Positions 36,801 through 59,679 of a stretch of 64,000 nt of DNA are shown in pieces. Positions within the stretch are counted from its first letter, which is position 1. Each line of letters begins with the position of its first letter. The stretch spans positions 55,741,429-55,805,428 of the forward strand of contig CM049312.1 in assembly GCA_026874595.1 (NCBI GenBank), read 5' to 3'. The notes beneath the pieces were generated by a model. That model saw only the letters and a list, made by a program, of their open reading frames with translations. It was not told the origin of the DNA and searched no databases. This stretch comes from Sipunculus nudus. Taxonomy: Eukaryota; Annelida; Sipuncula; Golfingiida; Sipunculidae. The translations under genes were made by a program, and so were the position numbers.

Positions 36801-39800
36801 TGTCAAGGTCACTTCCAGCCAATCAGGAGACCATGTTCTGTTGTCTTGCATCGGTCCTGCCTAGGACTGGGTATCGGTCTGCCTATTTAGGTACAATACG
36901 TATTGCAATACACTCAATTTGATATCTGATATGTATTGAAGATACACTCCATTTTTCTTTGTATATCATTACTGCATAAAAGTTCTGAATATATAATGTT
37001 TCTTATTTTTTTAATAAACAGCATATTCACTATATTCTGCATTTTATACTTGATATTGAATAAATAAAAAACACCAAATCAGTTAATAAAAAAACTGATA
37101 AAAAAGCTTTATTTTATGTATCATGTCCTTTATAGCAGGTCCTTTAAAACAAAAAAAAAACCTGAGCAAAACCGCAGGGGATGCTCTTCCTCTTTAGGGT
37201 GGATATAATCTCATACCACAGCATGGCGGCAGCATGTCCTCATCCCTTTTTAGGGAAATGGACAAGGTCTCATGTGTCCCCTTCTCTTTTTAGGGGAATA
37301 AAACGCGTACTTTTATACTTAACGATTTCGATATCATATTTTCAGTTTCTTGTTTCTTAATATTTATATCAATTCTCTTTCAATTGCGCACCTCATCACA
37401 AGAAATTTCGGATATTGTGAATGTTCAAACAAATAATGAAAACTAAGCAAAAATACATTTTATTCTCCAATTATACATACCGTATTATGTGTTGGAAAAT
37501 GATATTGAGAAAGTTTTTTTCTGGCTGGTGGCTATACTGTCCTCATTATCATGAACCGGGCTTTTGCCCGAACTCGGTGGATTGCCCCCCTCATATTTCC
37601 TGAAAAACAGGGCTGATGTGAGTATAGCTCAAATGTGCCCAATTGTCATCGGAGCTTTTGTCTTGTTTAAGTCTTAAAATTCAAAATATAAAAATATAAA
37701 GTGGCTATAGCTTTATTGCTAAACACTTGCAACAGATAATCTAAATAGGTCAACTTCCGACCAACACGTGATAATCTCCGTGTCATGAACCCCATTGTGT
37801 GTCGCTGGTGTGTCGGTCAATTGGTTTGTTATTTTGGCTGCATGACACACTTCACCACACGCCAGGCCACGCAAACCGACACAACCAAGTGTCGGTGTGT
37901 GTCGCCTGATTTCTGTGTCGGCCTGCATCGCGCTGTGTCGAGATGTGTGTCAGCCTTGGTGGGTCCACCCCTTTATATGAATTATCATATTAGATCATGA
38001 TATGTGTGCAAAATGGTAACGATTATACGGGGACCCAAGTGAATATGGAAGGAGTAGAAATAACTGTGTATTGTTAGAGGATAATCTTGAAGATAAGATT
38101 TGACATCAATTATAAAATCAATCTTTTTCCTTTCGATTTGCCCCGCTGATGGGCCTCTTTTCATGAAGGTTAAATTTTCGTGATAGTTTCTTTTTTTGGC
38201 AAATATCATGAATTTGAAACCCTCCCGAACAATAAGGTAACCACAGAACTTACCGTGACCATCAGTTCTGTGACCAGCAGGTGAAGGTCTGTTTACTTGG
38301 TTTAGAGTTCTGCACATGTAACTGCAAAACTTACCTGGACATTTCTACAACAGAGCTGAATGTATTCAATAATAATGGCTATAAATATCAATAATTATTA
38401 AGGAATATAAGTTTGATCAGAAACATTATTGTGCAGTGAAAAATTATTGGAAAATGTTTGAAATTATGGTCTGAATACTGGAAAATAAAGGAGATTACAG
38501 GAGACATTTTTTCAATAGTAAAATATAAGAAATGAAGCAGGAAGTGGAAGCCCTGCAAGTGATATACCACAATACATAAACCAATGGTATATAAACCACA
38601 TTATAGGATCAATAATTTATACTGATATATGGCCATGGACTGTGATTAGGTGATGATTATAAGTGCTACAAGCCAAACCGGTGTGCATTATATAAATGAT
38701 ATAGAACACCAGTATACAGTCAGTACTAAATGATAGATTATGATTACAGATGCTGTAAGCCAGGCTGCTGGGGATACAGCAGCTAAGTATGAGCAGGAAC
38801 GACAGCGGCTGGTGAAGGCTAATGAACAAATGGAGCAGGAATTAAATGAGCTGCACAGCAAGCTGTCACAGGAAAGGTCAGTCATATACCTTCTAGTCTA
38901 GCAGTCATTAAGAGTTTGTCTGAAAATGTTGTATGCTCTCTGTTCATCAGATTGTAATGTTTTCAGCATTTGGATCTCATCATTTGTTTTGGTGAACAAT
39001 TTGCATATATACAAGTGAGGTCCACTGTGAGGATTGGTACAGTGTTGGCATTGTTAGCTAGTTGTCTGGCCCATTTTATGGACAGTATATATGATTATTA
39101 TAATACAGTAGAACATATCTGAAAGACCACCTCTCTGACAAGACAACATGTCTGTAAAGACCATCCTGGAGTGAACCAAAAGCATTCACATTGGTTATAA
39201 CTAACCTGTCTAATAAGATCACCTGTGATTTTTACCACTTTTTGCCAGTCCCACAGGTGGTCTTATCACATAGGTTTCACTGTATATTGGAAATAAGCAT
39301 TATCATTGCATATTGCTGAAAGTAATACGGTAAAATAATAATGGAGGTCTTGATTTTTAAACATAATGTTAATTATTTGTATCCCCAGACAAAGTCGGGG
39401 GGATACTATGTTTTCATACCGGTCCCGCCGCCGCCGCATATAAATCTTGTTGGCGTGATAACCCAAAAAATATTTCACGGAACTTTACCAAACTTGGTAT
39501 ATGTATAGATATGGGTAAGAGGACGACGCCTATTTAAAAAGAGGTCATGACCTTTACTAGGAGAGTGTCCTTGACCTTGAATAGGTCCAATTTTGGGGAA
39601 AATCACACAAATTCTTTAATATCTCAAGAAATCTTGCATGGATTTATCCCAAAATCAAGTTGATGGAAGATCATGGATAGGGTTGTCATGTTCCAGAAAC
39701 TGGTGGCGCCACCTATTATTCTTTACTTGTTTTCGTGCCGTTTAATACCCCCAAAATTGCCACCTTACAGTACTGTGAGCATTATAAGTCAAAAACTAAT

Positions 39801-42800
39801 GGACAGATTTCTTTTATATTATGCATATACATAGGTATGGGTTATGGGATGATGTTTATTTAAATTGGGGTCATGACCTTTCCTATGATAGTGGCCTTGA
39901 CCTTGAATATTGCCATATATGGTGAAAATCACACACCTCTTATGATATCTCCAGTGTTGATAGCCATATGGATTTCAAACATGACTTATGTATGGCCCAC
40001 CACTAAAGTAAGAACCTTATAGGTTCTAGGGTCATGAGGTCAAAAGTCAAGGTCACTGGACTGGCATTTTAAAAGATACTGTGGATGCATTTTTAGGCCA
40101 AACTTTCATCCCAGGTCTTCCATCTTGAATATATAGCTCACGTGCCAATAGTGGATGATCCATATAAATTTTGGGGTCACAAGGTCAAAGGTCAAGGCCA
40201 CAGGAGCTATCTGTAAAAAAATTAGTTTTTGGATAATTCCTGCTTTTATTGATGTTTTGATTTCAAATTTGACTTATATATGTCCCATTGAAAAAGGAAG
40301 ACTCCAATTGATTTTGGGTCATGAGGTCAAAGGTCAAGGTCACAGGACACATCTTTAAAAAGATTGTGGATGCATTTTCAGCCAAACATTTCATCTCAGA
40401 TCTTTCATCTTGCACATATAGTTCACCTGCCAAGAGAAGAAGACCCCTATCAGTTTTGAGGTCACAAGGGCAAAGGTGAAGGTAACAGGAGCCATCTGTC
40501 CAAAAATTAGTTTCTGGATGATAATTCCTTCTTTTATTGATGTATGGATTTCAAACTTGACTTGTATTTGACCCATTGGAAAAGCAAGACCCAAATTGAT
40601 TTCTGGGTCATGAGGTCAAAGGTCAAGGTCACAGGAAACCTCTTAAAAAGATTGTGGATGCATTTTCAGCCAAACAATTCATCTCATATCTTTCATCTTG
40701 CACATATAGATCACCTGCCAAGAGTGGAAGACCCCTATCAATTTTGAGGTCACAAGGTCAAAGGTGAAGGTCACATGAGCCATCTGTCCAAAAATTAGTT
40801 TCTGGATGATAATTCCTGCTTTTATTGATGTATGGATTTCAAACTTGACTTGTATATGTCCCATTGGAAAAGCAAGACCAAATTGATTTTGGGGTCATGA
40901 GGTCAAAGGTCAAGGTCACAGGACACCTCTTTAAAAAGATGTGGATGCATTTTCAGCCAAACATTTCATCTCAGATCTTTCATCTTGCACGTATAGTTCA
41001 CCTGCCAAGAGAGGAAGAACCCTATCAATTTTGAGGTCACAAGGTCAAAGGTGAAGGTCACAGGAGCCATCTGTCCAAAAATTAGTTTCTGAATGATAAA
41101 ACCTTCTTTTATTGATGTATGGATTTCAAACTTGACTTGTATTTGACCCATTGGAAAAGCAAGACCTGAATTGATTTTGGGGTCATGAGGTCAAAGGTCA
41201 AGGTCACAGGAAACCTCTTTAAAAAGATTGTGGATGCATTTTCAGCCAAACAATTCATCTCAGATCTTTCATCTTGTACATATAGTTCACCTGCCAAGAG
41301 TGGAAGACCCCTATCAATTTTGAGGTCACAAGGTCAAAGGTGAAGGTCACAGGAGACATCTGTCCAAAAATTAGTTTCTGGATGATAATTCCTGCTTTTA
41401 TTGATGTATGGGTTTCAACTTGACTTGTATATGTCCCATTGGAAAAGCAAGACCCAAATTGATTTTGGGGTCATGAGGTCAAAGATCAAGGTCACAGGAC
41501 ACATCTTTAAAAAGATGTGGATGCATTTTCAGCCAAATATTTCATCTCAGATCTTTCATCTTGCACATATAGTTCTCCTGCCAAGAGAGGAAGAACACTT
41601 TCAATTTTGAGGTCACAAGGTCAAAGGTGAAGGTCACATGAGCCATCTGTCCGAAAAAATTAGTTTCTGGATGATAATTCCTGCTTTATTGATGTATAGA
41701 TTTCAAACTTGACTTGCATATGTCCCATTGGAAAAGCAAGACCCAAATTGATTTTAGGGTCATGAGGTCAAAGGTCAAGGTCACAGGACACATCTTTAAA
41801 AAGATCAAGGTCACAGGACCAACATCTTCAACAAGATTGTAGATTGTTAGATGGAAGAAACAATAAATATGCCGAGTGTCAGTATAAGCTGCTAAAAATG
41901 GGGGTCTATTCTTAAAGGGGGGGGGGGGGGGGCCTACTATGTCTGGGGATACTCTGGCACCTGCGGTGCCAAGAAATGTCTAGTTAATTAATATTAAATT
42001 ATTCATACATATATGTATCCAGTCATTAATATTTTATAGTATTACATTACATTCTTTTAATAAAAACAAAGCCGGAAGCTAAAGACAGAAATTAATAGTC
42101 TAATTTTAATAGGGAGGGATTCCTGGCATCGGTTGCAAAGTCTCTGAAAAAGGTGGGAGCAGTCCCCCAGTTACAGACCCAGAGTGAGGCTGAGAACCTG
42201 GAGGAGAGCATGAAGAAGGTAAGCATGGAGTGGACAGTATAATTTAAAAATACAACACTTAACCAAGAACATATGTGTCTTTATTAACTGGTATTTGATT
42301 TTGAGTGAGGTAAGAGACTAAGAGTGGAGTGGACAGTATACTGTAGCTCATAGAAGTATAACACTAAACCAAGAATATATATGTCGTTAAAAACAGGTAT
42401 TTGACTAAGAGTGGAGTGGACAGTGTATCGTGTCTCGCAAAAGCACAGCACCGTACCTTTAAGTGTGTTTATGTTAATATGTTTGATGCTTGGTCCATGC
42501 ACGTAAAAAAATAAATATATATTTACTTCAAGTCTAAAATTAGATTGACCCATATATTTCCACCCAACCCAAAGTTTCTTAAAGTCAAGCAAAGGTGTTT
42601 CAAAGCCCATTATTTTATTATATACTGCATTTGCCTTTAAGATAAAGGTAACAATAGAATTGAAGGTCAGATTTTTAACAAACTGGACCCTTTTGCTGCC
42701 AGAAAATTTAAAAAAATATTTTCCACCAAAAAAATAGGAGGTTGTTTGATTTGTGATAACTGATATAAGCTGTTTGCACTTCTATGAGCACTGACACAGT

Positions 42801-48800: not shown

Positions 48801-51800
48801 ATGTTATTATTTATCTTTATTTTTTGTTATTTTAACTGTTTAACAAGTATTATTTTGATACTTTGGTGTGATATATAATATGTATCATAGTAAGAAGGAA
48901 AAAAAAGAAAATGGCTTTATGTCATTTTGTTATTGTTCAGTATTTTAAATTATGACTAGACCAATAATAGAAGTACAGGTAATGCCAACAGTTTTGATAA
49001 TCTTAAAATAATTTTTCCTTTTTACTTATATAATTCTAGTTATATATTTTGTTCTGGTAACTTTAGTTTATTTGCAACAGAGGCTTATTTTATAACATAG
49101 AAAGCATCCCAGAGTTGTTGTGTTAAGCTGGTTAACACTGCTATTGTAACATTACAGCTTATTACAATAGCACTTCTGACTCTGTATGATTGTGTACGAA
49201 TGTGTGTAAACTAGCATCTGACATGTGACAAGCTTTTGTATGATACCACAGGTCCCAGGAACAGTAAGTAACAATACTAAATTAACATTCCTAGCTGTTT
49301 AGATGTCTTTATGTTACTGTCACTGTTCATGTATCTCAGTTCTCTTTTCCTGTCCCAACAGATCATTCATAGGCCCTGGATATTCTGCAACACCTCTGAT
49401 GGTCATGGGGTCTTATTAAAAATTCCTGTTTAACATCTAAATCATGAAGTTTTGGCCTTTTTTGGGACAACTTTACTACTAAACTCAGATATTAAATGAA
49501 ATGAAATTACAAAAATATGTATACCAACAGAAAGAACACTGTAACAGGTATAAAATAATGTATACGTCATGGGTCTAATATGGATTTAAAACAACTTTTG
49601 GATTGATTTTAGATATAGGGGTTTTCCCAGTTGGGCTACTTTAAAGGTAATAAGGGTAAAGGATTGAGTGCATGGGTGAAGAAAAACAACTATATGACAT
49701 AAATTTTATTGACCACAAGTTTATTAAAAAAGACAAGTAATTTTCAGTTTGTTCGAAATTTTGCCAGATGTATATAAAAATCAATTAGTACCCTTTTAAT
49801 GAGATTATGGTCAATAGCCAATCAGCACTACCCAAACAAATTACTGCACTACCTCATCATGCTTTTGACCTTCTCATGAATATTAATAGGACCCTGTGAC
49901 CTTATTAACCAAACAATTTCTCCTTGAATCCTACACTCCTCACATAATGGTTATACACTGCAGTCATTCAAGATCTCCTTTGTTTTAACTGCTGCTTTGT
50001 TTAACAAGTTTATTTTTGGTTTTGACACCAGGGCTGGCACAGGGCCAAGAATCAGCAGGGTGTCATGGATTTAAAACTTGGAGTTGGATGCACAATGTGA
50101 TACCATGCTCTCGTTGGTCTGATTATAATTATTTGCCCTATGCCAGCCCTGGTGGTGAGACCCAGAGAATCTTGTTATACAAAGCAGGAGTTAAAACAAA
50201 GGAAATTTGGAATGATTGCAGTCTATACTTATATAACGACTGCATGAGGAGTGCATTTGAATTCATACAAAACCCAGATCCATTCTCTAGCATAATTAAT
50301 CAAAATTATGACTAACCTGCTATTTCAAAAGTTCATAAGCACTTTGTATTATAAATAGTAAGTACAACCATCTGGTGGCAAACATAGTGCACAATCTGGG
50401 GCCTACCTGCATGTCAGTTGTATCTACGCAATCTTAGCAATGACAAATTTCTTGCCCGCTACAGGGTGGCTCCGATTTTGAAAAATGATATAGGCTGTTT
50501 GGCTGGAATTAAAAAAAAAAAATGTAAGCATAATTTGTGGACACCTGATTGTCCAGTTAATTTTATGTCAAATTCACATGTCTGAAATTATAGATCAACT
50601 CATGTGTAGCAGATTGTATAAATTGTTATGCCACCATAACATCTTCAGCAAGCCAATCCACAAAAAAACCCAACCCTCCTTTTGACTTCTTGGTCGCTTA
50701 CTAACCTCCTGGCGAAAAAATTCATACCACATGATAATTATATGTATTTTCTAAGGTTCTACTTATTGAATCCTTAACTGTTTCATTTCTTCCAGCCATT
50801 TGAACATTAATATTCTATGGCTGTGCAGTATCCTCTTTAGACCAGTATTTATTATGAAAATTGTGTATGCCATTGAAAGTTATACTGAGTACATTTATAC
50901 AATTTATCAATACTTCAGCTAAATCATACAGATTTCATTCAGTATAGTTGATATTAAACATTTGATTCAACTACACTTTACAAAGAAATATAAATCATTC
51001 TGTAGAAATCCATGAAAAGATAAATTGTTTCTCATTTCACATGGAGACTGGGCTTTTCTGAGAATTAATTCAGTCAGTTTGATGTGAGGGGAAGGACATT
51101 CTTATTATCTTCTGAACATTTGGGATCTCCTGGTAAACTTTGATTGCCATTTCTGTATATTTTCAGTTATCAGCTGTAACTACCAAACTGGAGGAGTCTG
51201 AGAAGTACACACAAGAGCTGAGACAACAGTTTGTGCAGTCACAGGCCAGTCTTCAGGACCAGCTGGTCAGTGCTGCAACCCCACTGTATGACTCCGGATT
51301 AGAGTCTGGAGTGCTGCTACTTATTCTTTTAAAATTATAGTTTTAAGGGAATGCTTCTTTTTAAATATGGTTAAACTGGTTTTCAAATGATAATACCGTT
51401 ATATATTTGATTGAAACTACAGTTAGCCCATAGACCCAAAATTCTCAAATTTTTAAGAAATAAACTTTTTGTTTTAAGTTGTTTTGTTAATCTGAGATAC
51501 ATTTAAAGATATCTTAACTTGACTGAGCTCGTACAAAATTTATAATCCCAATTACAGGTGCTTCTTAGACATTGATATGTAATTTAATGATTTTGAATAT
51601 TTATTTTATTTTTAGAAAACACTGACAGAGAATAGGGAAGAGGTACAAAAAGAGGTGAGACATTCATGGAGTAGAGATATATAAGCAGTGTGGTGTGATA
51701 TGTGATGTAACAGTGTACAAAATTGGAAATCCATTAATTGTCCCTGTATCATACAAATAATAGTTATTATTGATGAATTGTTATCAGTCTTTGTATAAAC

Positions 51801-54800
51801 CTGAAAGTATTTTAAGCTCATGTATACTGCCAGAGAGAGGATATCAGTTATCTACATCAGAATTCTTCAACTACCAATAATTCTACAATATAAGTTATAT
51901 AATAGTGTTAAGTATTACAAGTATTTGACCATGAAGCGTACATTTATAAACCCATTTTAAGCAATTGATGTCCTAATCTGATGACCTTTAGTACAGTCAA
52001 ACTTGCCTAACGACTGCCTCTGTTTAGTGACCACCTCAGAATAATGACCAATTGTTCACAGTCGCTATTCTTTTTTGCTCTTCATATAAGACCTTGCTTA
52101 CAAAATTGGTGGTCGTAATTTCAGGGTTTTACTGTTGATTTCTTACAGAAAGTTTCTACTCTAATTGTAAAGAGCCTTTAGCCCTTTAGATATATACCAA
52201 GAGGTTATGGGGTGCTAATATAAATATGAATATATTAATTTCCAGTTGACCAGACTGCAGGAGGAGAATGAGAACCTGGTGGGGAAACATTCCAAACATG
52301 CACAACAGATGCAGGAGGAAAGCATCGACCTACCCAATAATCTAGAGGTATGTCAGCTTGTAAAACAACATGGTTTATACCATAGGCATATTTATACCCA
52401 TGGGTCCAGTTTTTCACCCTATTCAGTCAAAAAGTGTCCTACAGAAAATTCAAAATCACTGTATAACACTGAAAATCTCTCGGAGATTTAATGGGTTTTA
52501 AGTCACTGTATTTGTATGTTTCATCTCATAATTGTATTTGGTTTATTTATCAGGAGATGCAGCTCTTACTGTTAAGATACAGAGAAGATATCATCAGTGC
52601 TAAAGTAGCCAAAGAGCACATCGAAGAAAACCTCCGCAGTGAGATTCTGTTCCTGAAGGCCCAGGTCATGTCAGAGCAACAGGAAAAGGCCACACTGGAG
52701 GAGACTTTAACGCAAGAAATAACTCACCTGCAGGAACAGCTAGGTAGGTCCTTAACCTGGGAGATAACTCACCTGAAGGAGCAACTAGGTAGGTCATTAA
52801 ACTGGGAGATAACTCACCTGAAGGAGCAACTAGCTAGGTCATTAACCTGGGAGATAACTCACCTGCAGGAGCAGCGAGGTAGATCTTTAAACTGGGAGAA
52901 AACTCACCTGCCGGAGCAGCTAGGTAGGTCATTAACCTTGAGATAACTCCAGCTAGGTAGGTCATTAACCTGGGAAATAACTCACTTGCAGGAGCAACTG
53001 GATAGCTCATTAACCTAGAGATAACTCACCTGCAGGGGTTACTGGGTAGGCCATTTATATGGGACAGTCTTGGAATGGTTGATGTCTCTGGTAGAAGCTA
53101 CATATAGAATAATCTGCAATGAATATTTAAACTATTAAACAATTTCTGAACATAATACTCCTTCAAACTATGTATGTTGGATCCTGTCCCTGGAGATTCC
53201 ATAAAGGTTAGTAAAATTCTCAACTCAAGGACTTACATTGTACGTAGCTGTAGCTTTCAGCCATATCTCACAATCATTGTCAGCAGGCTGGCATGCTTGA
53301 TAATGACTCTAGATGCCCTAATCCAGCTACAGGAGGGTGGGATGATAAAAATGAGCATCTACAGGAAAGCCACATATACCGATCAGTATTTGAAATTAGC
53401 ATCACATCACCCTCTGGAACACAAGCATTCTGTGGTCCTCACTCTATTCCAAAAAGCCCAGAATTTTGTGTGTGAGGAGGACAACCATGTAGGGGAAAGG
53501 AGGCACATACGTCAAGCATTAAGAGCCAATAGTTACACCGACTGGATATTGAGGGGTACCATCAGGGAAAAAGACAACAACCAAGAGAGAAAGTAATACC
53601 ACTTTTAAAACCAGACGTATAATGTTTGGCTTACCATATATAAAGAACACCTCAGAGAAACTCCAGAGAATCTTCCAGAAATATGACATCCAAGTGTTCT
53701 ACAAACCAGCCAACCCATTGAGATCGATCCTGGTAAGACCAAAGGACAAGACAAAACTCAGCAAGAAGACAGGGTGCCGTCTATGACATTCAGTGTGGTG
53801 ACTGTGGAAAGCACTACATTGGGGAGACTGCTTGTCTGCTGGGAAAACAAACCCAGGATTATAAAAAAAACAGCCTTGTCCCAGTTTATGAACACCAGAG
53901 GGATACTGGACACCTGATGCAGTGGAACTCTATTAATACCCTAGAGTCAGACTCAGTTGATATCAGGAGAAATATAAAGGAGGCACTCAACATTCAACCC
54001 CACTGACCTGCCCGAAATTGCAGTTTGGGCCTGGAACTTCCGCAGATTTACCACCACTTGGTTTTTTTGGGTAAAGGTAACTGCCTCAATTTTTTCAATG
54101 CTTGCTTCACTAAGTATTATGTACATCTGCAGAATTCCTTTCCGGTTTCAGACTACATGACAGGGCCTTACATGCGATAATTCTGGCATCAATCAGGCTT
54201 GGTGTATCACTCCTGCAGGCCCTGGGTGTGTCTCATTCCCATTGCTGGGTCATAACACCGAGGAAACCCCCAAAGGCACACTCGTTTGTGAGGGAAACAC
54301 AACTGTTGGGCACAGTCTCCCCATTAAGACTGCAGAGCGTTCAACCTGGATATGGGCTGACGGTGAAACATCTCACCGCCTCGGCTGAGATTCTAACTCA
54401 CAATCTCCGGGCTTTGAGTCTTGTGCTGTACCCCTGAGCCACAGAAGCCTGTTACAACCACTTGTTGTGTCATGATCCCTGTGGTCATGTGACAATGCCT
54501 GAGTCACTGTCTAGCACACCAGCCTGCTGCCGATGATTATGAGATATGGTCGAAAGCTACAGCTACGTACATTGTAAGTCCCTGAGATGAGAATTTTTCT
54601 AACCTTTATAATACTGCTTGTTAGTGAAAAAGATACAGAGAACTCAGTTGTAATATTAATTTCATTAAAGCAAATCTTATCCCGCTTATCTCTCTCATTT
54701 ATATTCCGATGATATTTTATCTCTTAAATGACTTCTCATGTTTATATCCAGCATTGCTACAGAGTGTCAAGTCAGAGCTGGAACACCAGCATGAATTGAA

Positions 54801-57800
54801 GACAGATGCTGAGGGCAAGCTGAAGGAGACAGAGGGGACTCTAAAATCAATACAGGCAAAGTCGAAACAGCTCATCAGTGGCCTGCAGGGCCAGGTGGAA
54901 ACACACTCAAAGGCCAGGGTAAGTTACCAGAAACTTACTAAACATGAAATCACATTAATCATTCCAGACTGTTAACCAAACTTCATCCTTTATCCTCATT
55001 GGTAATGTTGAACTTGCAAATGTGCAAGTCAAGAATCTTGCAAATCTTTAACCTTGCTTGTGTTGTGTTACTTATTAACAGTAAATTAACTCCTTCCTTT
55101 TGGTCCAGGACTTTTAAATGCCTTTAAATAACACTGGTTTGTTAGCATCAAATTGCAAGGCATCATTGTCCAAAGTATCAACACACAATGGCTGCAAACT
55201 TGCACAGTACCAAATAAAACAAAAACAATGAATTGACCAAAAAAATTTTAAAATCAAGTTTTTTGTAAACAGAAACATCCAGGTTGTGCTGATATCCATT
55301 CTGTATGGATTACCATCACCTGTTTGTAGACGGAGTTGGAGAATGAAGTTGCCTCTCTCAGGGCCAAGATCCAGTCCCTGCAGATTGACTTGGACAATAG
55401 TGAAGCTGTTCAGCGAGACTTTGTAAAATTATCTCAGTCATTACAGGTTAGTTATCCATGTCTTTTTACAGGAAGATCTTTGTGCACATTTTGATTAGAT
55501 TATTGTATTTTAACTCTATATAACTTTAATTTATGTTACTTTTCCCCATTACAAAAAATAAAAAATTTTTTAAGAAATTATTTGAAAATTTAGAAGTACA
55601 AAAGATGAATATTGAGAAAATTAAGACCTTGATATAGAACTAAAAATACAATGGTTAAGTTTAGGAAAGGAACAATATGACTTATATCTTGAATAATCTT
55701 TTTTTCTGCTTATAGATCCAGTTAGAAAAGATACGAGCTGCAGAACATGAGGTTCGGTGGCAACATGAAGAAGATGTAGAAGACTGCAACAACTGCAGAC
55801 AAGCGTTCTCTGTTACCCGCAGAAAGGTACGTTATCATAATCAGTTCTTAGACCCTTTACACTGAAGTACAGGTATTGGATTAAACATAAATGGACTCTA
55901 ATGATTATCATGTTGTCTTGTTTGTGGTCGTTGATATGGCATGTTTTGTATATGCTGGGTCTACAAAATTGTAGCTTGAGATACCCTATTTGCAGGTTTT
56001 CCAATAGGCCTCTTAAGGTAGCCCCATTTACATATAATGTAGGTGAAACATGGGCTCCTACATTCAGCTATATAAAATAATACTTATTATTAAATTTTTG
56101 TAAAATTATCATGCAGCTCTTGACTAATCAGTGTTTATTTAGATTTGGAAACCTTCAGTGAAAATATGTTACTGTACCTAATTTTCTCATCAAAGTTTAA
56201 GATATAATCAAGGCCAAGTGTCTTTTGTATTAAAGTGATAATTGTATCAGCCAAAACAGAGTTTTGCAAATACTATGTTTTCAGTCAGACGCCGCCGCCG
56301 CCGCATAGGTTTCCCAAGAACTCCTCCGTAACCACTGGGCAGAATTTTTAGCTCAGCTGACTATAAGTCATCTGAGCTATAGTCGTGGTCCATTGTCCGT
56401 CGTCCGTCCGTCCGTCTGTCCATCTGTAGATGTGACACATTTTGAAACCGTAAGACCTAGGTATCCAAAATTCAGCATAATGTTAGATGTCCCCAAGATC
56501 TCCAACCAAGCCGAAAACTGGGTCTTTGCGACTTTGTTCCTTTGAGAAATTAAGGAAAAACCTCAATTTTTTATTAAAAACCTATTTTCACACTTCAGGA
56601 CTGCCTATTATCAAAACCACTCATCTGTTTTTCCCCATATTAACCATAAATATTCCACTATATAGTTCCTATGTACATGCGAGAAACTAAGTCTGTTAAG
56701 TATAAATTCTTTAAGTTATGGGCCTGAATATAATGGACTTTGTAAAAAATCAGGAAAAATATTTACTCACTTAACATGAAAAATTTTGAAACTAGAGTTC
56801 ATTTCCCAAGTATATAACTATGTTTAATTAAGATTCAATTGTTTACCCAAAATTAGATGTGAATTTTGTAAATTATTAAGTTATTACCATAAAGATAAAA
56901 TCAGTACCTTAAATTTTGCCCAACTTTGACCATGGCACATTTTTTTCCTGTAAGTACTATTGATTTAATTTTCACAGCATATAAACATAAACATTTAATT
57001 TGTTTAAATCTGAAATTTGAAAATAAAAGCTTGAAAATTAAGCTAGTTATCAATTTTTTTCTTGAGGCTCTATTGTAGTCATTTGCTTTAATTACAGATT
57101 ACAGATGCAGGGTCCCACTCCAGGTCACTGGAAGTCAGCTGTGCCAGGGTTTCTGATTTGTTACAGTCACTGGGGGAGATCCCCTGCTGTGACAGGTGTA
57201 CACTTATTCTCATATCACCACCCTAATCCCCCCCCCCACAAACCCAACCCACCAAGTGTTATGCAGTAATTGTTATTGTTTTCACTGTATCTCCTTAATT
57301 GTAATGCTGTTTCCACTTCAATATGCAAAAACTTTCCTTGAAAAAGTAATTCAAGGTGTAATCCAGAAGATGCAATGTTGTGTAATGTAGCATTTTTCAA
57401 GAAATCAATTTTCTTTTAAATTATTTTAACAAATATAATTGAACCCATCAGTATGCCTAAATTTATCAAATATGAAGCACATTATGGATAAATAAAGACA
57501 CGATTAAAAATTGTGAAATCTGAATCAAATATTATTTTTAGATATTTATTGTTTTGCAGATTTAAAAGATATATTTTTGTGGTGAAAAATAAATAAACAT
57601 TTGTATGCATGATGTGGTGTTATCTGACAAGATTGAGATTTATGATGATGCAATTGAGAATTATGAATCAACATTTATATTCAGATATATATGTTATATT
57701 GGAAATGTATAGAAATATAAACTTAAATTTAAAAAAAATTGATGTGATAAAAAAATGAGGATTTAATACAAACATTTGTTCATTTTATTCCTGCCTCAGC

Positions 57801-59679
57801 AGAATTTGAGATCAGGCATTGTTTGCCCTGTTTTATGTTGTTAATTTGTTATATTTCAACTTTATACATTTCATAAAAAAATACATATATATTTAATAAT
57901 ATATATTATACAAAAAAAAACAGATTCAATTGAACAAATGTGTAAACTACTGAAATGTCAACAGTTAATCAAAAAGCCAACTAATGATCATGGTAATAGT
58001 ACAGATCATTTGTTCACAAACTGCTCACATGCTTAAGTTTCAACATTAGGAAACACATGGTCAGGTCACAAAATATTTGCAACAATTTCTTGCTCATCAG
58101 TACAAACCAATCATATAAACCAACCATGGCCTTTATCACCTCTGCCTCTTACACTTGATCTCCATTTGATATTATTTAAGATTTTTACCTTCAAGGTCAA
58201 CTTCAGCTGAGCACAATGACCTATGGGTCCCTTGTTTTTAATTCAGAATTATGATCGGGTCACATGTGAACTGCTGGGCCCTCATTTTTGGTTGACCTCT
58301 GACCTTTTCTCTCTGCCCAGCGTCCATTTGTTGGTCTGTTTCCATCCAAAAACCCACATATCTTGGGAACCATCTGACCAATCAAGCTAAAAATTTTGCA
58401 CAAATTTAGCCCTTGGATAGCTTTATAACATACACTAAAAATGGTGGTGCCACCTGCAACCACTTTTGCACAGCATCCATCTGTTCATCTGCCATGGGAT
58501 AAAATCACTCATATCTCTGCATTGGTTGGACGGTCCATCTGAAATTTTGCATGTGTATACATTCTGGACAGCTTTCTTGATTTTATGACAGGTGGCGCCA
58601 CTTACATTCACGTTTACGCTGCAGACATCCAAGCTCGTATCTCAGGAACTGTTTGACCGATTGGGCCAAAATGTTGCATATGTATAGATCTCACATAGCT
58701 CTTTATCATATGCAAAACTGGTGGCGCCACCTGCAACCATTTTTGCACAGCATCCGTCTGTTTGTCTGTTGTGGGATAAAACCACTCATATCTTAGTTGT
58801 GGTTTGACTCATATGCCTAAAATTTTGCATGTTTATACATCTTGGATAGCTTTCTCAATTTTGTGGCAGGTGGCGCCACCAACAGTTATGTTTATGCTGC
58901 AGACATTCAAACTTATATCTCAGGACTGGTTTGACATATCCCCCTGAAATTTTGTATGTGTATAGATCTCACATAGTTCTTAATCATACACAATATTGGT
59001 GGGGCCACCTGCCACCATTTTTGCACAGCGTCCTTCTGTTTGTCTGCTGTGGGATAAAATCACTCATATATAAGTAGGGGTTTGACTTTCTGCATATTTA
59101 TATATATATTAATATATTTAACTTGGACAGCTTTCTGGATTTTGTGGCAGGTGGTGCCACTTACATACAGATTTTGGCTGCAGACATCCATGCTAATATG
59201 CAACACACCTCACTTTATTTCCCCTTGCCACTCAATCCATGCCTCACTCCACCCGTCCCTCTCTGATTTTGGCGAGACACATAGTCGCTTGTCAACTACC
59301 CGTATTCTAGTTATGGAAACAAGTAAGATATCATATTTTTAACTTTCATTTTACATAGAGTCAATGACTTAAATCTATAGTTTTATTTCAAGTGTTGAGG
59401 AAAGATTGTGAAATAAAAGTAAAATTTAGTAAGTAAAATTAAGTGCAATGGTTTACTAAACTTTGTTTAAAAAATTTGTTTAATATCTTGTTTTATCTTC
59501 CTATGTTGTAGCATCACTGTAAGCACTGTGGGAAAATCTTCTGTTCTGACTGCCTGACGAAAAATGTAAACAGTGGCCCCCATTTACGGCCCTCAAAGGT
59601 TTGTGATGTTTGTCATACCATATTGGTGCAAGACGCAACGCCATATTTTAGCACAGAGCCACCAATCACACCAGACTAA
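17516..59679 (+). CDS. RABEP1: Rabaptin (Rab GTPase-binding effector protein 1-like) with C-terminal FYVE finger, 22 coding exons
   Basis: Rabaptin-5 is a coiled-coil effector on early endosomes that binds active Rab5 and Rab4 and partners the exchange factor Rabex-5. The joined exons (listed separately) give 2811 nt and 936 residues; human RABEP1 is 862. Near-identical stretches to the vertebrate protein include DLEMYVAVLNTQK (exon 8), NDQFLESQRL (exon 9), KPCDMCNNYE (exon 14) and VQRDFVKLSQSLQ (exon 20). Domain order: N-terminal coiled coils 18-400, acidic and serine-rich hinge 399-490, CDMC at 544-547, coiled coils 550-850 with the Rab5-binding-type segment in exons 18-21, then a FYVE finger 859-915 with all eight Cys. 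Vertebrate rabaptin ends without FYVE; some invertebrate homologues are known to carry one. The GGA-binding FGPLV of vertebrates is not seen in the hinge. Every junction is GT/AG with consistent phase. The first exon is the least certain part. Confidence 0.93.
18749..18810. repeat. TA microsatellite
   Basis: About 30 uninterrupted TA repeats inside the inverted-repeat-bounded element. Confidence 0.97.
19218..19505. repeat. Nested tandem duplication in intron 1
   Basis: Two adjacent copies of a 70-bp unit (19288-19357 and 19358-19427; TATATGTCTGTTTGTGTG...GCATGGGTACCTTG) are flanked by two copies of another unit (TTTATTCAAT...CACGTATTAT...ATTATATTATGCAACTC) at about 19228 and 19445. Confidence 0.8.
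20526..21630. mobile_element. Foldback-type element built of palindromic GACCAATCGG modules
   Basis: The outer 30 bases match as inverted repeats (20526-20555 against 21601-21630, 27 of 30). Both ends continue as arrays of self-complementary modules: 20554-20568 and 20577-20591 form a perfect 15-bp stem with an 8-base loop. The right end carries a second stem, GGTCTGGACCAATT with AATTGGTCCAGACC. The middle is AT-rich and non-coding. Confidence 0.8.
23811..24800 (+). mobile_element. Helentron/HINE-like non-autonomous element (family F2), copy 1
   Basis: It starts GTATTCCCGGACAAAGTCGG and GGGATACTATG and ends TGTCTGGGGATACTATGG, then TACCTGCGGTGCC (imperfect stem) and AAGAAATATCTAG before T. 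Internal units of about 329 bp share GGTGGCGCCACCT and the block GTCATGACCTT...GTGGCCTTGACCTTGAATATTGCCATATATGG. It matches the copy at 39379-41983 in its first 600 bp and last 50 bp. Confidence 0.75.
27640..27910 (+). mobile_element. tRNA-derived SINE, copy A
   Basis: A box-A-like start (TGTGGTTCAGGGATACAGCAC) and box-B-like GAGTTCAAATCCC lie at tRNA-like spacing. The body has GGTCAGCCTCCACCCAGGG and a tail CCTGGTTAACATCAG shared in part with the copies at 34538, 45319 and 54165. Confidence 0.75.
29341..29478 (+). CDS. RABEP1: Rabaptin exon 2 (residues 18-63)
   Basis: Acceptor GTCATTGCAG, donor GTGAAA, phase 1 to 1. It encodes QEREFGQKRARFKDLF, matching the vertebrate QEFNQKRAKFKELY block at the start of the coiled coil. 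Confidence 0.93.
30783..31080 (+). mobile_element. F1-headed repeat, variant subfamily
   Basis: It has the F1 hairpin head (TTTTAGCTTAGCTGACTG and AGTCATCTGAGCTATAG) and a CTGTCTGT run. After 30905 it diverges to a body with GGTGGCGCCACCTGGCTG, so it is a different subfamily or a chimera with the F2-like module. Confidence 0.75.
34538..34800 (+). mobile_element. tRNA-derived SINE, copy B
   Basis: GGCTTCTGTGGTCTTAGGG, then TACAGCACAGGACTCAAAACC and box-B-like GAGTTCAAATCTCAGCC. It is the best-preserved head of the family and matches the reverse complement of the copy at 54165-54455. Confidence 0.85.
35341..35544 (+). CDS. RABEP1: Rabaptin exon 3 (residues 64-131)
   Basis: Acceptor TGTTTTACAG, donor GTGACC, phase 1 to 1. 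It encodes coiled coil ending HQEEVASLHSIMK, matching vertebrate REEVASLQAIMK. Confidence 0.95.
35545..38749 (+). other. Intron 3
   Basis: Mostly occupied by a non-autonomous DNA element at 36451-37973. The rest is unassigned. Confidence 0.7.
36451..37973. mobile_element. Non-autonomous DNA transposon with 27-bp TIRs and CGACAC subterminal repeats
   Basis: 36451-36477 (AAGGGGTGAACCCACCAAAG and CCGACAC) pairs with the reverse complement of 37947-37973 at 24 of 27 positions. Both subterminal zones (36470-36740, 37790-37950) are crowded with CGACAC/GTGTCG hexamers, GC-rich compared with the AT-rich core. No transposase frame is present. Confidence 0.8.
38750..38876 (+). CDS. RABEP1: Rabaptin exon 4 (residues 132-173)
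   Basis: Acceptor TGATTACAG, donor GTCAGT, phase 1 to 2. It encodes AAKYEQERQRLVKANEQMEQ, a charged coiled coil aligned with the vertebrate HQRLEQER region. Confidence 0.93.
39104..39284. mobile_element. TA-flanked MITE (TACAGT termini)
   Basis: The left end TACAGTAGAACATATCTGAA and the right end CATAGGTTTCACTGTA are inverted repeats that continue into ACCACCT/AGGTGGT. TA on both sides fits a Tc1/mariner-type target duplication. About 181 bp. Relatives occur at 51992-52135 and, as a half copy, at 48575-48739. Confidence 0.7.
39960..41830. repeat. Tandem array, about six units of ~288 bp, rich in AGGTCA half-sites
   Basis: The landmark TCTTTCATCTTGCACATATAG recurs at about 40413, 40701, 40988, 41277 and 41564. 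Each unit carries GAGGTCAAAGGTCAAGGTCA and a second GAGGTCACAAGGTCAAAGGT block. AGGTCAAAGGTCA is perfect at 40182, 40324, 40613, 40900, 41188 and 41765. Confidence 0.92.
41918..41933. repeat. Poly-G tract
   Basis: A run of about 16 G just before the F2 3' terminus; prone to assembly and sequencing length errors. Confidence 0.9.
42113..42218 (+). CDS. RABEP1: Rabaptin exon 5 (residues 174-209)
   Basis: Acceptor TTTTAATAG, donor GTAAGC, phase 2 to 0. It encodes SEAENLEESMKK, matching the vertebrate EENLENEMKK just before AQEDAE. Confidence 0.94.
43166..43282 (+). CDS. RABEP1: Rabaptin exon 6 (residues 210-248)
   Basis: Acceptor GTATTACAG, donor GTACAA, phase 0 to 0. It encodes AQEDAEVLKSVVLPLEEEI, near-identical to the vertebrate AQEDAEKLRSVVMPMEKEI. 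Confidence 0.97.
44018..44074 (+). CDS. RABEP1: Rabaptin exon 7 (residues 249-267)
   Basis: A 57-nt exon, acceptor TTTGTTTGTAG, donor GTGAGT, phase 0 to 0, encoding LHPEGVEEKKLSASEVDEK. It has no clear vertebrate counterpart and could be skipped without a frame change. Confidence 0.8.
44666..44801 (+). CDS. RABEP1: Rabaptin exon 8 (residues 268-312)
   Basis: Acceptor TTTTTTTTAG, donor GTATGT, phase 0 to 1. It encodes RTDLEMYVAVLNTQKNVLQE, nearly identical to vertebrate rabaptin: the strongest single anchor for the gene identity. Confidence 0.98.
44846..45010 (+). pseudogene. Two decayed tandem copies of the 3' half of exon 8
   Basis: 44850-44905 (TACCCTGAAAAATGTGC then ACAGGAAGATGCTGGTAAAT) and 44956-45003 (ACCAGAAGAATGTTCT, a gap, then CCTCAGTTTCATGAAAGT) parallel exon 8 from ACCCAGAAAAATGTTCTCC to CTTCATGAAGGTATG. 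Spacing is about 107 bp per unit. Both carry gaps or stops and the second has lost its middle; no sign of use as exons. Confidence 0.7.
45147..45305 (+). CDS. RABEP1: Rabaptin exon 9 (residues 313-365)
   Basis: Acceptor CCTTTTTAG, donor GTAAGT, phase 1 to 1. It encodes TWQMANDQFLESQRL, matching vertebrate TWQKANDQFLESQRL. Confidence 0.97.
45319..45605 (+). mobile_element. tRNA-derived SINE, copy C, directly after exon 9
   Basis: CTGGTCTACGGGTACTCAAAACC heads a body with CAGCAGCCATGTTCACTCAC and a tail GCAGGCCTGGTTAATAC. It starts only about 14 bp after the exon 9 splice donor. The box B is degenerate (GTGATCAAAGCTC). Confidence 0.75.
46313..46411 (+). CDS. RABEP1: Rabaptin exon 10 (residues 366-398)
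   Basis: Acceptor GTTCAACAG, donor GTCAGT, phase 1 to 1. It encodes ELKKKDAEREAQEK..., a Glu/Gln/Lys-rich coiled coil starting like the vertebrate EELKKKDQED. Confidence 0.93.
46763..46827 (+). CDS. RABEP1: Rabaptin exon 11 (residues 399-420, hinge)
   Basis: Acceptor TTGAATTCCAG, donor GTAAGT, phase 1 to 0. It encodes the Ser/Pro-rich start of the hinge, DAENRDVSHSPSPSLDLIG. Assigned by phase and position. Confidence 0.85.
47203..47413 (+). CDS. RABEP1: Rabaptin exon 12 (residues 421-490, hinge)
   Basis: Acceptor TTCTTCTGTAG, donor GTAACC, phase 0 to 1. An acidic, Ser-rich hinge with LLDLD at 451-455, a clathrin-box pattern. It ends GLTEAQQRAIT, like the vertebrate MLTKDQERAIK. Confidence 0.93.
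47582..47601. repeat. GATAA pentanucleotide microsatellite
   Basis: Four AGATA/GATAA repeats in intron 12; short and simple. Confidence 0.8.
47850..47974 (+). CDS. RABEP1: Rabaptin exon 13 (residues 491-532)
   Basis: Acceptor TGAATACAG, donor GTGAGA, phase 1 to 0. It encodes KRLVSEKEWQMLQHE, matching vertebrate YRLVSETEWNLLQKE. Confidence 0.96.
48314..48535 (+). CDS. RABEP1: Rabaptin exon 14 (residues 533-606)
   Basis: Acceptor TTGATTTACAG, donor GTACAT, phase 0 to 0. It encodes EKLGKPCDMCNNYESQLQ, the conserved CDMC block of the family (C544, C547), then coiled coil. Confidence 0.98.
48575..48739. mobile_element. Partial TACAGT-type MITE
   Basis: The right end AGCAAGATTTCACTGTATAT matches the right ends of the elements at 39104 and 51992. 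The body has repeated GTGGTTGT motifs. The left terminus is not seen. Confidence 0.5.
48740..51166 (+). other. Remainder of intron 14
   Basis: AT-rich. It includes a 127-bp inverted-repeat element at 50027-50153. No coding sequence fits the gap: exon 14 joins exon 15 smoothly when compared with the vertebrate protein. Confidence 0.65.
50027..50153. repeat. Small inverted-repeat element (ACCAGGGCTGGCAC)
   Basis: 50027-50044 (ACCAGGGCTGGCACAGGG) and 50136-50153 (CCCTATGCCAGCCCTGGT) are reverse complements at 17 of 18 positions, enclosing about 90 bp. Confidence 0.65.
51167..51265 (+). CDS. RABEP1: Rabaptin exon 15 (residues 607-639)
   Basis: Acceptor TATTTTCAG, donor GTCAGT, phase 0 to 0. Coiled coil LEESEKYTQELRQQFVQSQ, aligned with the vertebrate ASEILLEELQQGLSQ region. 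Confidence 0.92.
51616..51654 (+). CDS. RABEP1: Rabaptin exon 16 (39 nt, residues 640-652)
   Basis: A very short exon, acceptor TATTTTTAG, donor GTGAGA, phase 0 to 0, encoding KTLTENREEVQKE, matching the vertebrate LMQSREQVSEE. Confidence 0.9.
51992..52135. mobile_element. TACAGT-type MITE in intron 16
   Basis: The left end TACAGTCAAACTTGCCTAACG and the right end TTTCAGGGTTTTACTGT are inverted repeats with GTGACCACC/GGTGGTCGT subterminal blocks. About 144 bp; non-coding. Confidence 0.65.
52246..52347 (+). CDS. RABEP1: Rabaptin exon 17 (residues 653-686)
   Basis: Acceptor AATTTCCAG, donor GTATGT, phase 0 to 0. It encodes LTRLQEENENLVGKHSKH, matching vertebrate LVRLQKDNDSLQGKHSLH. Confidence 0.97.
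52554..52743 (+). CDS. RABEP1: Rabaptin exon 18 (residues 687-749)
   Basis: Acceptor TTTATCAG, donor GTAGGT, phase 0 to 1. It encodes LRYREDIISAKVAKEHIEEN and ILFLKAQ, matching vertebrate LKYREDIINVRTAADHVEEK and ILFLKEQ. The 3' end is the first unit of a 45-bp tandem repeat that copies the donor, so longer versions of this exon ending at 52788, 52878 or 52923 keep the same phase. Confidence 0.95.
52716..53054 (+). repeat. 45-bp minisatellite duplicating the exon 18 end and splice donor
   Basis: AACTCACCTG recurs at 52721, 52766, 52811, 52856 and 52901, exactly 45 bp apart. Worn units follow to about 53054. Each unit reads as 15 codons (EITHLQEQLGRSLTW and variants), and the frame stays open to a stop at 52944-52946. 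GT donors in the same register are kept after 52743, 52788, 52878 and 52923; in unit 3 the position reads CT instead of GT. Confidence 0.95.
53310..54010 (+). pseudogene. Penelope-like retroelement remnant (RT C-terminus and GIY-YIG region)
   Basis: The frame 53174-53596 contains SIYRKATYTDQYLKLASHHP and LEHKHSVVLTLF...HIRQALRANSYTDW, as in proteins with a Penelope-type reverse-transcriptase C-terminus. After a frame break near 53600, LPYIKNTSEKLQRIF, VYDIQCGDCGKHYIGETACL and YEHQRDTGH resemble the linker and GIY-YIG nuclease region. Frameshifts and internal stops are present, and the main RT domain is absent. It sits in intron 18 in the same orientation as the gene. Confidence 0.8.
54165..54455 (-). 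mobile_element. tRNA-derived SINE, copy D (minus strand)
   Basis: The reverse complement reads GGCTTCTGTGGCTCAGGGGT, then ACAGCACAAGACTCAAAGCCC and GAGTTAGAATCTCAGCC, matching copy B at 34538. The 3' part includes GGGCCTGCAGGAGTGATAC. Confidence 0.85.
54752..54918 (+). CDS. RABEP1: Rabaptin exon 19 (residues 750-805)
   Basis: Acceptor TTTATATCCAG, donor GTAAGT, phase 1 to 0. Coiled coil ALLQSVKSELEHQHELKTDA, aligned with vertebrate SSLKAELERIKVEKGQ. Confidence 0.94.
55330..55446 (+). CDS. RABEP1: Rabaptin exon 20 (residues 806-844)
   Basis: Acceptor TGTTTGTAG, donor GTTAGT, phase 0 to 0. It encodes NSEAVQRDFVKLSQSLQ, matching vertebrate VSEQVQRDFVKLSQTLQ in the Rab5-binding C-terminus. Confidence 0.98.
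55716..55826 (+). CDS. RABEP1: Rabaptin exon 21 (residues 845-881, first half of FYVE)
   Basis: Acceptor CTGCTTATAG, donor GTACGT, phase 0 to 0. It opens IQLEKIRAAE (vertebrate VQLERIRQAD), then departs into WQHEEDVEDCNNCRQAFSV and TRRK: the WxxD-like start and first zinc-binding CxxC (C868, C871) of a FYVE finger. Confidence 0.97.
56345..57075 (+). mobile_element. Hairpin-headed repeat (family F1), copy e
   Basis: It has the same head hairpin and CCGTC run as copies a and b and the same body as copy b through to GAGGCTCTATTG. A short F2-head-like fragment (ACTATGTTTTCAG...GCCGCCGCCGCCGCATA) lies immediately upstream at 56272-56306. Confidence 0.85.
57098..57226 (+). other. Candidate alternative last exon of rabaptin
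   Basis: After a plausible acceptor (TTGCTTTAATTACAG), a frame in phase with exon 21 runs ITDAGSHSRSLEVSCARVSD... for 42 codons to TAA at 57224-57226. A GT at 57196 would end a 98-nt exon that breaks the frame, so it can only be a terminal exon. It would remove the second half of the FYVE finger. No homology supports it. Confidence 0.25.
58203..58240 (+). repeat. F1-type 3' terminus in intron 21
   Basis: TTCAGCTGAGCACAATGACC and TATGGGTCCCTTGTTTTT, a mutated version of the ends at 12358 and 12908. Confidence 0.65.
58290..59190. repeat. Three-unit tandem repeat, ~277 bp per unit
   Basis: Each unit has GGTGGCGCCACCTGCAACCA (or a close variant), TTTTGCACAGCGTCC, TGTGGGATAAAATCACTCAT, then CAGGTGGCGCCAC and GCTGCAGACATCCA. 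The landmark recurs near 58443, 58721 and 58997. Confidence 0.88.
59512..59679 (+). CDS. RABEP1: Rabaptin exon 22 (residues 882-936, second half of FYVE and stop)
   Basis: Acceptor CTATGTTGTAG, phase 0. It opens HHCKHCGKIFCSDC, completing the RRKHHC signature, then KVCDVC. Zinc ligands are C884, C887, C892, C895, C912 and C915. It ends FSTEPPITPD and TAA. Confidence 0.98.
   Translation, partial: HHCKHCGKIFCSDCLTKNVNSGPHLRPSKVCDVCHTILVQDATPYFSTEPPITPD

Follow-up and report, generated by a model that had tools for sequence, protein, structure and literature searches.

In a 64-kb stretch of DNA from the sipunculan Sipunculus nudus (64,000 nucleotides, hereafter the window), a minisatellite lies across the end of a coiled-coil exon and its splice donor. 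This arrangement raises the question of whether the multiplied donors are regularly used, and thereby lengthen the encoded coil, or whether the exon still ends at its original donor while the copies are tolerated. The former had been proposed in an earlier note on this DNA, which described an array of donors whose choice could make coil length variable between transcripts and, by copy number, between individuals. The features on which the answer depends are compiled in Table 1.

Table 1. Repeat units, donor-related segments and exons of the rabaptin locus in window coordinates; a slash within a motif marks the exon-intron or intron-exon boundary.
Feature	Position	Strand	Details
45-bp minisatellite	52719..53036	+	TRF; unit consists of exon end and intron start
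Unit 1	52716	+	start; exon frame reads EITHLQEQLGRSLTW
Unit 2	52761	+	start; exon frame reads EITHLKEQLGRSLNW
Unit 3	52806	+	start; exon frame reads EITHLKEQLARSLTW
Unit 4	52851	+	start; exon frame reads EITHLQEQRGRSLNW
Unit 5	52896	+	start; exon frame reads EKTHLPEQLGRSLTL
Unit 3 donor position	52831..52839	+	TAG/CTAGGT, GT lost
Segment added by D2	52744..52788	+	TAG/GTAGGT, +15 residues
Segment added by D4	52744..52878	+	GAG/GTAGAT, weaker U1 pairing, +45 residues
Segment added by D5	52744..52923	+	TAG/GTAGGT, +60 residues
First in-frame stop after exon start	52944..52946	+	TAA
Bases from stop to D6	52947..52956	+	TAG/GTAGGT, phase 1; an mRNA spliced at D6 would contain the TAA
Rabaptin exon ("exon 18" of the earlier note)	52554..52743	+	63 codons and 1 base; Pfam Rab5-bind; ends at D1, TAG/GTAGGT
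Next rabaptin exon	54752..54918	+	acceptor CCAG/CATTG, phase 1 in; unbroken Rab5-bind match over the junction
Exon with conserved Rab5-side coil	55330..55446	+	Rab5-bind model 259-299; match to human rabaptin, PDB 1tu3
Exon after Rab5-side coil	55716..55826	+	

Judged by its matches to protein family profiles, the array-bearing exon belongs to a rabaptin gene. The open reading frame (ORF) holding this exon matches Pfam Rab5-bind (E 5.8e-18), and further exons of the window match Pfam Rabaptin as well as Rab5-bind. Both families (PF03528 and PF09311, respectively) are represented above their curated cut-offs, with 69.5 bits for Rabaptin in an upstream exon (cut-off 26.7) and 179.8 bits for Rab5-bind in the protein joined through the first donor, D1 (cut-off 33.6). 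The same joined protein matches human rabaptin (PDB 1tu3, E 2.2e-9) over residues 153-204, which mostly stem from the exon with the conserved Rab5-side coil, and EEA1 (PDB 1joc, E 2.1e-5); PDB searches with the ORF of exon plus array (best E 0.29) and with the ORF of the next exon (best E 1.4) gave matches at chance level. Since an acceptor at 54762 (CTACAG/AGTG) runs into stops when joined to D1, the acceptor at 54751 was taken for the next exon. A profile search of the genome returned no second rabaptin locus or haplotig, and all matches at E <= 0.001, four of four to Rab5-bind and four of four to Rabaptin, lie in the window on the plus strand. Further downstream, a sub-threshold similarity to a FYVE finger is seen in the exon that follows the Rab5-side coil (Pfam E 2e-4; 21.8 bits against a cut-off of 27.8), extending over positions 1-24 of the 67 in the model. 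The sequence HHCKHCGKIFCSDC... about 3.7 kb downstream (about 59510-59640) resembles the remainder of this finger; human rabaptin-5 is not known to contain a FYVE finger. Within the intron that follows the array, ORFs at 53156-54006 resemble, on visual inspection, fragments of a Penelope-like retroelement, and two ORFs of this element compared with Pfam gave nothing over cut-off.

The minisatellite that spans the end of the rabaptin exon and its donor is a real feature and not a product of chance. TRF, applied to the window, reports it with 7.4 copies, 80% matches and a score of 391, and units 1 to 5 follow each other in exact steps of 45 bp with 38-43 of 45 bases identical in pairwise comparison. 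The exact 45-bp period that had been described for the array holds for these five units but not beyond them, as unit 6 shares only 11-17 of 45 bases when read in their register and TRF gives a 33-bp period where the register breaks. Searches of the 1.43-Gb assembly by DNA and by pattern, in which very common words were skipped and the best candidates alone were scored, returned this locus alone, and membership of the array in a repeat family is hence unsupported. A search for structured RNA between 52200 and 55000 gave no Rfam match at gathering score. A further tandem array, with a 288-bp period and 6.4 copies (39967-41805; TRF), lies between two rabaptin exons, of which one ends at 38876 and the other begins near 42117. 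Altogether, 7.1% of the window consists of TRF arrays, so that a splice site within an array is no great surprise.

With donor coordinates given as the last exon base, the nine bases TAG/GTAGGT are identical at 52743 (D1), 52788 (D2), 52923 (D5) and 52956 (D6), D4 at 52878 reads GAG/GTAGAT, and all five donors leave phase 1. Hence, the tandem units span the donor in the manner of the human ABCA7 array considered below: units 1, 2, 5 and 6 carry the same 9-mer, which is altered in unit 4 and has been lost from unit 3. Computed pairing with the 5' end of U1, in the form present in both U1 loci fetched, amounts to -10.3 kcal/mol for D1, D2, D5 and D6 and to -6.6 kcal/mol for D4. Elsewhere in the gene, 15 donor strings were sought, of which TGCAGCATGAG was not found, and the exon at 51167 was assigned no donor; 14 other donors were scored and range from -6.4 to -12.2 kcal/mol, with one of them stronger than D1. 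D2, D5 and D6 thus equal D1 in donor bases and U1 pairing and surpass 13 of these 14 donors, so the donor itself gives D1 no edge, which speaks against a dominance of D1. As to U1 itself, snRNA matches on contig C6 are clustered at 50.26-50.37 Mb on one strand and at 88.24-88.30 Mb on the other, with a spacing of mostly about 2.8-2.9 kb, and among the matches listed (42 of 18832 candidates scored) all 42 score 162 bits.

Joining of five exons yields open translations of 229, 244, 274 and 289 residues with D1, D2, D4 and D5, respectively. In consequence, several statements of the earlier note are borne out: its four donors leave phase 1 and fit the next exon, both by sequence and in the joined translations, later donors can add 15, 45 or 60 residues without a frameshift, and unit 3, reading CTAG/CT, has lost its GT. 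Its list of donors was sound for the four named but overlooked the fourth identical donor at 52956 and the in-frame TAA ahead of it. D2, D4 and D5 therefore combine matching phase with an open frame, as a change of coil length by splicing demands; D6 is in phase and lies behind the stop, which its isoform carries. The anatomy of the locus, with identical donors, matching phase and an insert predicted to be helix-compatible, does allow an in-frame choice of donors as had been envisaged.

Which of the donors belongs to the family pattern is indicated by the Rab5-bind profile. The D1 isoform matches in one stretch (residues 1-202 against model positions 110-307 of 307), whereas the D2, D4 and D5 isoforms match in two stretches at 172.4, 175.8 and 172.3 bits, the best of which ends at residue 99-100, directly beside the insert. 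The D1 match holds four more residues than model positions, at a place that the output does not show. Because the exon at 55330 begins at model position 259 and the D1 junction bridges to it unbroken, splicing at D1 would yield the normal family length within four residues. Owing to this unbroken fit at near-normal length, D1 is probably the ancestral donor, and the split matches favour its predominance over D2, D4 and D5. On the other hand, the longer forms lose just 4-7.5 bits relative to D1, which is a small difference, and the ORF of exon plus array, when not joined to the next exon, matches beyond D1 as far as 52826 in unit 3; the repeats are thus coil-like enough to align to Rab5-bind, a point that weakens the case for D1 and lends some weight to regular use of several donors.

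Neither the open frame nor the sequence of the copies points to selection for length. An open frame after a 45-nt boundary duplication is the usual outcome and unremarkable, because 371 of 450 duplications enumerated from the donors of this gene (15 donors including D1, 30 splits each, one extra unit in every case) stay open; with the split of 28 + 17 nt this applies to 15 of 15, or to 14 of 14 without the D1 donor. Moreover, one in every three periods would be divisible by three a priori. Compared with the unit consensus, units 1-5 show 16 differences, 7 synonymous and 9 non-synonymous, in which no coding selection is detectable: the non-synonymous share expected is about 72% and that observed is 9/16 (binomial p 0.17), a test of low power since it comprises 16 differences and ignores the shared ancestry of the copies, and one that speaks neither for nor against constraint. 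In neutral simulations, 30% of the arrays remained without any stop. The changes judged most radical are L>R in unit 4 and I>K and Q>P in unit 5, and in both units the 3-4 hydrophobic spacing is broken. While the absence of a selection signal, the radical changes, the common openness of such duplications and the abundance of arrays in the window are in accord with a dominant D1, the weakness of the selection test counts on the opposite side.

Taken together, the most probable explanation is that of a boundary minisatellite with D1 as ancestral and main donor, the later donors being cryptic or of minor use. Accordingly worded, the mechanism would have begun with a tandem duplication of the exon end together with the intron start (28 and 17 nt, respectively, in the present register), which would then have expanded to a minisatellite and thereby multiplied the donor. 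D1 would most likely be the main donor in use, and the later ones would be cryptic or give rise to minor isoforms, with in-frame insertions from D2, D4 and D5 and a premature stop from D6. That the frame stays open and the insert is helical would be explained by the derivation of the unit from a coiled-coil exon and by its period being divisible by three, rather than by selection for variable length. Whereas the array, its donors and their phases, the profile fit and the lack of a selection signal in a weak test are shown, the restriction of the array to a lineage, the usage of its donors and any copy-number change between individuals are inferences.

An alternative, and the model of the earlier note, holds that several donors are regularly used, lengthening the coil by 15, 45 or 60 residues with a copy number that varies in the population. 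This reading gains from the strength and identity of D1, D2 and D5, their common phase and the open isoforms, and likewise from the predicted structure. Exon plus array, taken as 130 residues without the next exon, are predicted as a single helix over residues 2-129 (mean pLDDT 92.5, with 97 and 94 over residues 91-110, falling to 84 and 66 in the final two blocks) by a single-sequence model with a pTM of 0.48, and the clean units keep a hydrophobic spacing of 4-4-3-4, equivalent to a 15-residue period. Given this continuous predicted helix and the spacing, a lengthening that leaves the helix unbroken appears feasible, at least through D2. However, coil-like sequence readily appears helical in a single-sequence model, the insert splits the family match, the seam residues are altered in units 4 and 5, and the donor has gone from unit 3 and is of lower strength in unit 4. 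Regular use of several donors is therefore regarded as unlikely. In its fullest form, in which a 15-residue minisatellite that keeps the helix seam multiplies the donor and yields rabaptin tethers of several lengths, set by donor choice and the array length of the individual, the idea is to be considered more doubtful still. That the coil differs in length among transcripts and individuals is thus possible but unproven.

The later donors might instead mainly give rise to a poison form, in which use of D6 brings the TAA into the transcript and lowers rabaptin output by nonsense-mediated decay. D6 indeed shares the nine donor bases of D1, the TAA ends 10 nt ahead of it and more exons lie downstream, and in human ABCA7 retention of one repeat unit is described as leading to a frameshift and a premature stop (PMC5954066); yet an open frame in the rabaptin exons examined suggests that frequent splicing at D6 would not be tolerated, and this scenario is accordingly rated improbable. 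Least probable is that the exon has simply grown, with D5 constitutive and the longer coil as the normal protein of the species, for although the frame is open to D5 and a helix is predicted, the family fit is unbroken with D1 alone and the hydrophobic seam is disturbed in units 4-5.

The mechanism proposed in the earlier note is of a known kind, as precedents are described for a donor-bearing minisatellite, for AGGT duplications and for competing donors. The closest parallel is the VNTR in intron 18 of human ABCA7, whose 25-bp unit starts with the GT of the exon 18 donor; as in rabaptin, the minisatellite directly flanks the exon, includes its donor and consists of slightly varying units (PMC5954066). 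As described there, an isoform keeping one unit occurs beside the canonical one, a close similarity that favours a dominant D1, and allele sizes lie between about 12 and about 427 units, whereas the rabaptin array is known from one assembly. Use of the donor one unit downstream has been observed in ABCA7; in addition, retention of the 25-bp unit shifts the frame, while the 45-bp unit of rabaptin preserves it and also holds the exon end.

Tandem AG/GT copies likewise create alternative splice sites in AGGT duplication and intron gain (Rogers model, fission yeast, potato RdRp; PMC4974935), and the introduction of that paper mentions a 24-bp AGGT segment of fission yeast that was multiply duplicated in tandem, with introns across the copies. 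In rabaptin, by contrast, an existing donor was multiplied at its own boundary, and there is no sign of a new intron. Tandem splice sites (PMC2423196; TassDB2, PMC2878309) similarly comprise adjacent donors of one exon with closely similar isoforms, though the sites described for TassDB2 are 2-12 nt apart and those of rabaptin mostly 45 nt or more (33 nt between D5 and D6) and placed in a minisatellite. A tie between minisatellites and alternative splicing is also reported for the intronic CeRep25B of Caenorhabditis elegans near alternative exons (PMC4039745), which is thought to act as an intronic regulatory motif as opposed to the row of donors in rabaptin. With respect to competing donors, SRSF1 and hnRNP A1 are described to shift the choice, and in DOK7 the intron-proximal donor is preferred (PMC5585400), which would argue against D1, although the preferred donor is there also the stronger. 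The tetramerization domain of VASP (cited in PMC4721544) shares with the rabaptin unit a 15-residue helical repeat, a likeness in period alone. What is distinct here is a unit that comprises whole codons, includes the exon end and is predicted to be helix-compatible; among the matches listed (titles and abstract starts) in open-licence literature on donor minisatellites, duplicated splice sites, rabaptin and boundary-spanning VNTRs, no rabaptin array or in-frame donor minisatellite was found.

If the later donors are used, the array would parallel the ABCA7 VNTR while keeping the frame, and it would allow competition among identical donors at fixed spacing to be studied in a natural setting. 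It would also show how DNA slippage can alter the length of a coiled-coil tether. If they are unused, the locus would provide a clean example of a boundary minisatellite that is tolerated by the splicing machinery.
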